A stretch of 41,518 nucleotides of DNA, taken from assembly GCF_030851345.1 (NCBI RefSeq), contig NZ_JALPNU010000030.1:1-41518 (forward strand). Direction: 5' to 3'. Below the pieces are notes generated by a model. The model was not told where the DNA came from, did no database searches, and was given only the letters and a program-made list of their open reading frames with translations. A program made the position numbers and the translations under genes. The stretch comes from Marinifilum sp. D714. Lineage in GTDB: Bacteria; Bacteroidota; Bacteroidia; Bacteroidales; Marinifilaceae. This document shows, piece by piece, positions 26,064-28,236 of this stretch. The first letter of the stretch is position 1; each line of letters opens with the position of its first letter.

Positions 26064-26167
26064 ATTCTTATAATTTGAATGACAAAGATAACAGAATTAT
26101 AACGAATGAGTAAATAGGAGCATATGAATTGGTATGCTATAGGTGTTGAGACTGATATTGATTTATG

Positions 26168-26263
26168 CCAAAGAAAAATCCCGAACTCGCAAGTTTGGGA
26201 TTTTCTTCTAACCACTATTTACTAACCTAAATCTAATTCTATGAAAAAACTTCTCTGTTTTGT
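26168..26263 (-). ncRNA. candidate antisense small RNA 1
   Basis: On the minus strand a TACATTTG box (26277-26270) matches the Bacteroidota -7 consensus TAnnTTTG. About 70-95 nt downstream the hairpin at 26204-26175 ends in a T-rich run, as an intrinsic terminator would. The enclosed RNA of about 96 nt is complementary to the leader and start codon on the plus strand. A matching -33 TTTG at the right distance is missing, so the promoter is weak. Confidence 0.3.
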
Positions 26264-26285
26264 ACATTACAAATGTAGGTTGTAA
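26241..26285 (+). CDS. 14-residue ORF, truncated leader of a TonB-receptor-like gene?
   Basis: ATG at 26241 to TAA at 26283-26285 encodes MKKLLCFVHYKCRL. The MKK-hydrophobic opening, and the leader in front, look like the start of a SusC/TonB-dependent receptor gene that stops early. I infer this from memory of such gene starts and cannot verify it. An identical ORF lies in unit 2 (26425-26469). Confidence 0.25.
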   Translation: MKKLLCFVHYKCRL

Positions 26286-26351
26286 ATGTGCTAAATGGTT
26301 TAAACAAAAGTTAATAAAGTTTAAAAGTGCATTTTAGTGTTCGATTTATAC

Positions 26352-26447
26352 CAAAGAAAAATCCCGAACTTGTTCAGTCCGGGATTTTCTTCTAACCATT
26401 ATTTACTAACCTAAATCTAATTCTATGAAAAAACTTCTCTGTTTTGT
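26352..26447 (-). ncRNA. candidate antisense small RNA 2
   Basis: This has the same arrangement as candidate 1: TACATTTG on the minus strand (26461-26454), about 95 nt complementary to the leader/ATG, then the hairpin at 26388-26358 with a T-rich tail. Evidence is the conserved box and terminator in both units; no expression data. Confidence 0.3.
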
Positions 26448-26469
26448 ACATTACAAATGTAGGTTGTAA
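26425..26469 (+). CDS. 14-residue ORF, second copy
   Basis: Identical in sequence to the ORF at 26241-26285 (MKKLLCFVHYKCRL). Because the surrounding DNA is also identical, conservation of the peptide itself cannot be distinguished from recent duplication. Confidence 0.25.
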   Translation: MKKLLCFVHYKCRL

Positions 26470-26655
26470 ATGTGCTAAATGATTTAAACAAAAGTTAATG
26501 AAACTTAAAAGTGGATTGTCGTATCTATTTTTATTTAATACTATTTTGATAATGAGTTAAGCACCTGGTATAATGCCAATAGATTAATGACAGCGTTAAA
26601 TGCAAAACAAATTTAACCCTAAGGTCATTAATGAATCAGTATAAAACAAGTAAAA

Positions 26656-26763: not shown

Positions 26764-28236
26764 TTATTTGTATAATGGTTTCTTTTTATTTCCTAATGGC
26801 TCAAACCAAGAGCATTCGTCCTTCTTTTTGTTTTTATCCTTACAGCCAAACAATAGGTTAAAGCCAAAGCGCACATTGGCAACTTGAGCACTGTTTGGTC
26901 GAATTGCTGCCAATACATTATCGGTAATGGTATAAAATTGCACAGGACCAAGTTTAGCGGCTACTCCAAATCCTATATTATTGTAAGAATTGTTTACAGC
27001 AGTATAGCTTAAGCTTGTACTTAGGTTTCTAAAAAATCTTGCATTAGCCGATAAAGTTAGTGATGATTGAACCTTGCCATTGAAAATCTCTGTTCGACTT
27101 AAAGCTCCTAAATTTACCCTATTATGAATTTGATGCGAACCTCCCAAGTAAATCTTGGTTGGTAAGCCCACAGAGTAAGAGCCAGTTAAATCTGACACAC
27201 GAAACTCGTCTTCGATATCGTCTACCAAATCATCAAAAACATCTTCTATTTCCCTATAGTTCGGATCGTTTGAATTTCCCGATTGTGACCAGTCTGCACC
27301 ATTGTAGGTGAATGATCCATCTTGAACAAACTCATAGCCGTTCGATTTCCAAGTAATGCCTCCAATATCAAGTACACTTGCGTAAAGTGTGGTTTTCTCA
27401 TCCATTTTGTAAGTCATACCCAAGTCAACAGCAAAACCTTTGTTATCGGTATTCAAGAAAAAATCTTCATCGAAATCATCACTACTAAAATTGATGTCAT
27501 CAACAAAACCATTGGCATCGTAAGTAATCTGATTGATTGGAACAGATGCTCTTAATCGATGCTTAGAGTTTAATATCACTTGATCGCCAGTTAAGGATGT
27601 AAAAACGGACATGTCTGACTCTTCCATATGAAGATTGGCAATACCAAAAAGAACTTTCCCTTTTACGCCAACAGTCCACTTGTCGTTGATTTTCTTCGAA
27701 ACTCCCAAGGCAATTTCATGATATGTATTGGCATCAACGCCTAATCCACCCCAATTGGCAGTTCGTCCTCTAAAGTCATAATTACCATTCTTTAAAAAGG
27801 TAATCATCTCCTTGTCGAAACTAAAGCGCGAGTCTTCTTTCTCGATTACATCAAGAGTGAAATAGAAGTCTTTTGCTCGAATTCCCAAAGCAAAAAGTGT
27901 CAATTCAAATTGCTGAGAAAGAAAGTTTGTGGTTTTTAATGCATCGTGAAAGCTATTCACATTTACTACCAATGAATCGCTTCTAATGCCTGTTCCATCG
28001 GTGATTATATCATTGTAAGCAAAGCTGCTATTGCTGTAATTAAAATAGATGGAACTAAGAGCCGGGAAGCCAACAAAGACTTTACACTCTGGCTGTATGG
28101 CTGGATTTACTTGGTTTGATTGAGGTACATTTTGCATTAAATACAAAGTGTTGTTCAGTTTTTGAGCCACACCGTTCATATTCGAAATCAAAAAAATTAA
28201 TCCTGCTAGAGATATCTTGGTTAAAAATCTTGTCAT
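26764..28236 (-). CDS. DUF5723-family outer-membrane beta-barrel protein
   Basis: The 490-residue precursor has a signal peptide (residues 1-24, ending NGVAQ). The mature protein opens with NTLYLMQNVPQSNQVNPAIQPE, typical of DUF5723 and PorV/FadL-like barrels in Bacteroidota. It continues with many alternating beta strands to a terminal RFGFNLLFGC. Acidic loops (residues about 225-245 and 325-340) are probably extracellular. It follows a lipoprotein gene by only 25 bp, so the two are cotranscribed and may form a surface complex. The substrate is unknown. Confidence 0.85.
   Translation of the reverse strand: MTRFLTKISLAGLIFLISNMNGVAQKLNNTLYLMQNVPQSNQVNPAIQPECKVFVGFPALSSIYFNYSNSSFAYNDIITDGTGIRSDSLVVNVNSFHDALKTTNFLSQQFELTLFALGIRAKDFYFTLDVIEKEDSRFSFDKEMITFLKNGNYDFRGRTANWGGLGVDANTYHEIALGVSKKINDKWTVGVKGKVLFGIANLHMEESDMSVFTSLTGDQVILNSKHRLRASVPINQITYDANGFVDDINFSSDDFDEDFFLNTDNKGFAVDLGMTYKMDEKTTLYASVLDIGGITWKSNGYEFVQDGSFTYNGADWSQSGNSNDPNYREIEDVFDDLVDDIEDEFRVSDLTGSYSVGLPTKIYLGGSHQIHNRVNLGALSRTEIFNGKVQSSLTLSANARFFRNLSTSLSYTAVNNSYNNIGFGVAAKLGPVQFYTITDNVLAAIRPNSAQVANVRFGFNLLFGCKDKNKKKDECSWFEPLGNKKKPLYK

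Follow-up and report, generated by a model that had tools for sequence, protein, structure and literature searches.

The direct repeat at 26192–26338 and 26376–26522 of the window (the whole 41,518-nucleotide stretch of Marinifilum sp. D714 DNA analysed here) very probably comprises tandem genes for trans-acting, FopS-like small RNAs (sRNAs), which likely block ribosome entry at susC-type receptor mRNAs. FopS is described as a set of 14 paralogous sRNAs of Bacteroides thetaiotaomicron that block translation of susC mRNAs by binding around the start codon (PMC11697453). The units of the window belong to a sequence family with multiple copies, a strand-specific promoter box, a covarying terminator and a preferential complementarity to SusC start regions.

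The repeat and its two candidate RNA genes

The repeat is 147 nt long with 93% identity at a spacing of 184, and the 28-nt stretch preceding it is also duplicated (96% identity, spacing 183), which bears out the two copies about 184 bp apart given in the preliminary description. The shared 14-codon open reading frame noted there, MKKLLCFVHYKCRL, is encoded on the plus strand of both copies, and the exact −7 box that had been read on the minus strand, TACATTTG, is present at 26461–26454 and 26277–26270. TAnnTTTG is the −7 promoter consensus of Bacteroidetes. Along the minus strand, each copy runs from TACATTTG through about 20 nt to UUUUUUCAUAG AAUUAGAUUUAGGUUAGUAAA, followed by a linker, a hairpin and a T-rich tail. 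The features are listed below, where RF04319 is the Rfam model of FopS and R1 is a covariance model built from 13 own-genome copies with the promoter columns left out; copies a and b were both among these sequences, so their R1 scores are not independent of the model.

26351–26449, minus strand: FopS-like sRNA gene, copy b; predicted transcript of about 99 nt; R1 94.5 bits, RF04319 35.8 bits
26168–26265, minus strand: FopS-like sRNA gene, copy a; predicted transcript of about 98 nt; R1 93.5 bits, RF04319 30.3 bits
26454–26461, minus strand: −7 promoter box TACATTTG of copy b, from the sequence and from TAnnTTTG upstream of most family copies
26270–26277, minus strand: −7 promoter box TACATTTG of copy a, on the same basis
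26474–26498, minus strand: putative upstream promoter region of copy b (TTAAC at 26498–26494, TTTAGC at 26479–26474)
26290–26314, minus strand: putative upstream promoter region of copy a (TTAAC at 26314–26310, TTTAGC at 26295–26290)
26401–26435, minus strand: anti-start-codon seed of copy b, UUUUUUCAUAG...AGAUUUAGGUUAGUAA, from alignment to the FopS/GibS seed region and SusC-specific pairing
26217–26251, minus strand: anti-start-codon seed of copy a, on the same basis
26357–26389, minus strand: terminator hairpin of copy b, with a T-rich tail to about 26351, from the hairpin scan and covariation across copies
26174–26205, minus strand: terminator hairpin of copy a, with one mismatched pair and a T-rich tail to about 26168
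26241–26285, plus strand: 14-codon open reading frame antisense to copy a (the same in copy b at 26425–26469), not considered a gene

The 5′ end of copy b was placed 5 nt past the −7 box by analogy with FopS, and TTAAC and TTTAGC would be upstream promoter elements of both copies. A terminator scan of the minus strand listed the copy b stem (26389–26357) as terminator-like and did not list that of copy a, and the whole-RNA fold reached −18.6 kcal/mol in copy a vs −25.3 kcal/mol in copy b. The earlier statement that the stem was kept while the loop changed is nearly, though not strictly, accurate for copy a, in which one stem pair is mismatched and the fold is weaker. Full-length folds of both window RNAs pull parts of the seed into pairing. 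The upstream minus-strand gene is the DUF5723 gene at 26764–28236, and two terminator-like hairpins (26708–26686 and 26677–26650, minus strand) lie between it and the sRNA promoter, so that copies a and b are probably transcribed independently of it. A sigma-70-type promoter scan of the window was uninformative (1 found vs 4.4 expected).

Copies of the family and its probable relation to FopS

A BLAST search of the own genome returned strong further matches on seven other contigs. With R1, 14 copies were found in this genome at E ≤ 4.1e-6, of which 13 had been used to build the model and the 14th lies at the end of contig C51; a divergent candidate (C9:113180, 30.2 bits) was aligned once and kept out of R1. 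Contigs C10, C20, C25, C51 and C94 of the same assembly end inside an sRNA copy or no more than about 120 nt from one. The sRNA repeats probably break the assembly, and because these five contigs end in or near copies, the count of 14 may underestimate the true number.

Within the family Marinifilaceae, R1 matched 25 of 56 genomes at E ≤ 1e-5 (own genome included), the five Marinifilum genomes having 8 to 15 copies each, and 39 of the 149 genomes of the order, again with the own genome, had matches at E ≤ 0.001. A pattern scan of named genomes, which may omit records very close to the window's genome, gave 27 stretches, and each of them came from Marinifilum, Ancylomarina, Labilibaculum or another Marinifilaceae bacterium. 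At the window's locus, as judged by flanking DNA and model matches, there is 1 copy in M. flexuosum, 2 in both the window's genome and M. fragile, and 3 in M. breve; another array, in Marinifilum sp. N1E240, holds 5 copies, the most in the stretches examined. Six IMG/VR viral contigs also carry the seed pattern; none of the six has an R1 match at E ≤ 1e-4. A phage copy is also mentioned in the FopS paper (PMC11697453).

None of the Rfam gathering scores was reached at the repeat, the sole such match in the window being a tRNA elsewhere. At a relaxed threshold, the best match of both copies, end to end and on the minus strand, was FopS (RF04319), although their scores of 35.8 and 30.3 bits miss the FopS gathering score of 56 bits, as do all 33 own-genome matches. 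The alignment sets the FopS seed GUGUUUUUCAUgGUAUUAGAUUUAAGGUUAAuAAA against GU-UUUUUCAUAGAAUUAGAUUU-AGGUUAGUAAA of the window, which is almost identical; past the seed, the linker of the window copies is longer than that of FopS and their terminator stem differs, and the alignment suggests that these two differences account for the shortfall in score. Weak Rfam matches to ohsC, MicC, Thr leader, ctRNA and BTnc231, all far below their gathering scores, were set aside as chance. Across the order, RF04319 matched 33 of 149 genomes, 26 of them above the gathering score, and of 57 R1 places in genomes other than the own one, 15 are also RF04319 places, 9 of these above the gathering score (counted from result tables).

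The distance between promoter box and seed, read from sequence rather than from mapped transcription starts, varies among these groups: TAnnTTTG ends 4 nt before the seed in 25 of the 26 above-cut-off FopS loci listed (by eye), and among 73 boxed Marinifilaceae copies the seed starts 25–29 nt past the box start in 58 and, in Ancylomarina and relatives, 68–72 nt past it in 11. The Ancylomarina-type copies (L178:1237–2122, L180:180–570, L166:4367–5050 and L165:2390–3180) have a longer 5′ part between box and seed, and some of them show a second TTTTTTCAT in an apparent hairpin loop (by eye), so that these may possibly be two-seed sRNAs.

Functional sRNAs unrelated to FopS by descent, with a seed that converged on the same sequence through shared receptor start targets, would account for part of this pattern, as only the seed aligns, the terminators, promoters and 5′ ends differ from those of FopS, the Rfam gathering score is missed, and target pairing itself would impose the seed. 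However, seed and terminator are co-linear with FopS from end to end, the multicopy habit is common to both, and the 15 places at which R1 and RF04319 meet lie in other Bacteroidales, 9 of them above the Rfam cut-off; we regard convergence as unlikely, though it deserves consideration. The window family has a SusC-complementary R1′ seed, a 3′ Rho-independent terminator (in copy b and across the family) and multiple paralogues. Its members are related to FopS by seed, architecture and intermediate matches, and because the FopS gathering score is not reached and two features are absent (a seed at the very 5′ end and an RRM-1 partner), they are best filed as a FopS-like variant rather than as FopS itself.

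Strand signals and pairing with SusC start regions

The −7 consensus recurs upstream of the family on the sRNA strand. In one set, comprising 62 of 63 model matches (L181 was omitted because a contig end cuts it off) and the 13 own-genome copies, TAnnTTTG was found in 73 of 75 copies; in a wider, partly overlapping set of 107 of 109 copies (two were too close to an end), it was found in 93, with 14 having no recognisable box. The strand test took 73 of the 75 copies with both flanks; on the family strand, 61 of these had the box no more than 50 nt away, whereas on the opposite strand a search out to 75 nt met it in 1. FopS promoters are called sigma-ABfr (PMC11697453). Upstream of the −7 box, TTAAC and TTTAGC/TTAACC are common to many Marinifilum copies (by eye, uncounted), and many FopS loci in other Bacteroidales carry a ATGTTnnATAACAT-like palindrome there instead (by eye); since these upstream sequences differ, the two sets of sRNAs may answer to different regulators.

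The terminator stem covaries. In the own-genome MAFFT alignment, double changes occur in 6 of 12 pairs and 88.7% of cells pair, with 0 of 500 shuffles as high. Among 87 distinct Marinifilaceae copies, in an alignment fitted to the covariance model and hence leaning to the structure, 11 of 12 pairs show double changes (6 of 500 shuffles reach 11), with 190 double-change cells and 95.3% of cells paired (0 of 500 shuffles for each). By region, mean identity comes to 0.875 (seed), 0.904 (linker), about 0.73 (stem arms) and 0.35 (loop), and the open reading frame on the plus-type strand ranges from 4 to 28 codons across copies, with neither frame nor length conserved. The promoter box and the terminator are both conserved and specific to one strand, which, together with FopS as the best Rfam family, supports the proposal in the preliminary description that the units are read as antisense sRNAs from the minus strand.

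The own genome has 29 SusC genes above the curated TIGR04056 cut-off (of 56 matches), which served as the target set and include one with an in-frame stop (L083). Each gene was assumed to begin at the first ATG that follows the upstream stop, which is doubtful for some (e.g., L063, L065 and L072), and the background consisted of 286 gene starts from the window plus 20 stretches, each of 20 kb, including at least one TonB-type receptor. By duplex energies that ignore accessibility, a 48-nt stretch of copy C94a paired with SusC starts at a mean of −21.9 kcal/mol vs −15.5 kcal/mol with the 286 others (p 1.7e-10), and the window copy at −20.5 vs −15.1 kcal/mol. The observed difference of −6.5 was reached by 0 of 60 shuffled seeds, whose own difference was −0.2 ± 0.8, and genes starting with ATGAAA alone (21 SusC vs 53 others) gave −5.4, again reached by 0 of 60. 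Two own versions of the 35-nt seed gave −6.3 and −6.1 (0 of 40 shuffles each), whereas the 35-nt FopS Rfam consensus seed gave only −0.65, with 4 of 40 shuffles as good.

The pairing is concentrated at about −24 to +12, and the six best duplexes begin at −30 to −39. Single starts beat shuffled seeds (no more than 3 of 60 as good) in 22 of 29 SusC genes vs 12 of the 96 background genes drawn from the 286. When the RNA was divided into segments and set against 60 ATGA-starting background genes, the anti-AUG part and the AGAUUUAGGUUAGUAA part each had 0 of 100 shuffles as good; the linker alone was weak (10 of 100), and the 5′ extension showed no SusC pairing (90 of 100). Only 1 of 29 SusC starts (C94a seed) or 3 of 29 (window seed) lie beyond the best 1% of the 286 background starts, and 11 or 9 of 29, respectively, beyond the best 5%. 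Equally strong pairing is seen with some genes other than SusC, such as the TonB-type receptor at C10:40198. The seed pairs preferentially with the SusC starts of this genome, in agreement with the SusC link and the action in trans suggested earlier.

It had further been expected that the plus-strand leader would recur elsewhere in the genome in front of genes. For the exact leader this failed, as 9 of 9 matches in the own genome are sRNA copies and none precedes a susC gene; a looser pattern gave 14 places, 10 of them sRNA copies and 4 others (a reversed control pattern had 2 matches), and here the expectation held in part, since 2 of the 4 precede receptor genes. The targets likely carry imperfect complements and not an identical leader, which is normal for trans-acting sRNAs. 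The closest leader match outside the sRNA copies, TTACTAACCTAAC...ATGAAAAA, is at C10:40198 and belongs to a TonB-type receptor gene with an open frame of 850 aa and a weak TIGR04056 match.

These data also bear on the alternative offered at the outset, that the units are dead copies of a receptor leader (here taken as that of a SusC gene, and as including displaced copies), in which case the plus strand would be the meaningful one and the duplicates non-functional. The plus strand does resemble a SusC leader with ATGAAAAAA, and many non-identical copies exist, but no intact source gene was found among the nine exact leader matches, the stem covaries, the −7 box favours the minus-type strand by 61 of 73 to 1 of 73, the length of the open reading frame is not constant (4 to 28 codons), and conservation extends to the seed (0.875) and the linker (0.904) but not to the loop (0.35). 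We consider decayed leaders highly improbable. A MITE- or REP-like mobile repeat whose ends resemble sRNA signals by chance would be multicopy, would be found where contigs end and could differ in number at one locus between species, as observed here; it is scarcely plausible, however, given that the window repeat scan listed no inverted repeat flanking the unit, that the copies on one examined stretch share their orientation, as unequal crossing over predicts, and that the stem covaries and the seed is conserved. A leader peptide or attenuator on the plus strand, for which the ATG and 14-codon frame of each window copy might speak, can be dismissed almost entirely, as 1 of 73 copies has a −7 box on the plus-type strand, the frame and its length are not conserved, and the next gene (26764–28236) is on the minus strand and not co-directional.

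Proposed mechanism and comparison with known systems

In the tandem sRNA genes proposed here, each unit would use its own promoter and terminator, and two RNAs of about 98–99 nt would be made from the minus strand, each consisting, in order, of a short 5′ extension, a seed of about 34 nt, the conserved linker UAGUGGUUAG and an intrinsic terminator. The seed would act as the antisense of a SusC-type translation start, with UUUUUUCAU pairing with AUGAAAAAA and AGAUUUAGGUUAGUAA pairing with roughly the −25 to −7 region of the target. The RNAs would thereby most likely bind susC-type receptor mRNAs over the stretch from about −38 to +12, counted from the start codon, and keep ribosomes from entering, and 14 or more gene copies acting as one pool would hold down many receptor operons. 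Production of the RNAs, their binding and the resulting repression are inferred by analogy with FopS.

FopS is antagonised by the RRM-1 protein RbpB (PMC11697453). At E ≤ 0.01, no RRM_1 (PF00076) protein was found in the own genome or in four other genomes of the genus. Among the 56 family genomes, R1 matches occur in 25 and RRM_1 in 28, with both in one (G194) and neither in 4, so that 24 of the 25 genomes with these sRNAs are without RRM_1; one genome that has RRM_1 (G106) shows an R1 match at 1.1e-5, just past the threshold of E ≤ 1e-5. This pattern is striking, but the sRNA-rich genera probably form one clade, and it may reflect a single event. Across the order, 10 of the 26 genomes with above-cut-off FopS have no RRM_1 at E ≤ 1e-5; the protein therefore does not accompany even typical FopS in every genome, and RbpB-type binding may not define the FopS family. 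A connection of the 5′ extension with the absence of the RRM protein was unsupported, since genomes without RRM (such as G021, G025 and G041) have extension-free FopS loci, and genomes with RRM (such as G055 and G062) have extended copies. Among 52 distinct 5′ regions, the signal for a 5′ hairpin is weak, with a mean z of −1.3.

It is conceivable, although we would not put it forward as the probable course, that Marinifilum, Labilibaculum and Ancylomarina share an RbpB-free, host-tuned FopS circuit that grew in tandem, acquired a 5′ extension and a second conserved segment, and whose seed drifted along with the SusC starts. In such a circuit, the 5′ extension of many copies could form a small hairpin against the U-run of the seed, the Bacteroides seed consensus would no longer single out the SusC starts of the host, and the RRM antagonist would be absent.

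Conservation of FopS is reported within Bacteroidaceae (PMC11697453), and searches of the open full-text literature listed no description of such RNAs outside Bacteroidaceae. If the window units are FopS-like sRNA genes, pooled control of SusC-type glycan receptors by paralogous sRNAs would extend from gut Bacteroidaceae to marine relatives. Seed and terminator together would then be the central module of the circuit, with the RNA-binding protein being optional, and the family would provide a natural comparison for studying how the match between an sRNA seed and dozens of target leaders is maintained over time.

Among the known systems, GibS (RF04182) has the R1 seed in common with the window copies, which score 26.4 and 26.0 bits against its gathering score of 115; its model, in contrast, has 142 positions, most of the middle of which is missing from their alignment, and GibS is described as having a second seed, R2, and a non-canonical promoter (PMC11697453). 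DonS of Bacteroides fragilis is likewise an sRNA that represses a glycan-uptake (PUL) operon, but it is encoded divergently to one PUL (PMC11697453); the likeness is drawn from its description. Flavobacterium Rfp18 differs in its described targets, which are metalloproteases. FopS, expressed as 65–70 nt RNAs (PMC11697453), has its seed right at the 5′ end, whereas the window seed lies about 13–17 nt from the predicted 5′ end. The window copies further differ from FopS in the extra conserved linker UAGUGGUUAG and an unrelated terminator sequence, in the tandem arrays (up to 5 copies) and different upstream promoter sequence of Marinifilum, in that no RRM_1 protein was found in the Marinifilum sp. 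genome, and in that the FopS consensus seed has at most a weak preference for the SusC starts of this genome. Shared with FopS are a near-identical seed over the susC start codon, a 3′ intrinsic terminator, a canonical −7 box, many paralogues (14 per B. thetaiotaomicron genome vs 14 found here) and the predicted block of SusC translation, and by this analogy the RNAs of the window likely work as FopS does.
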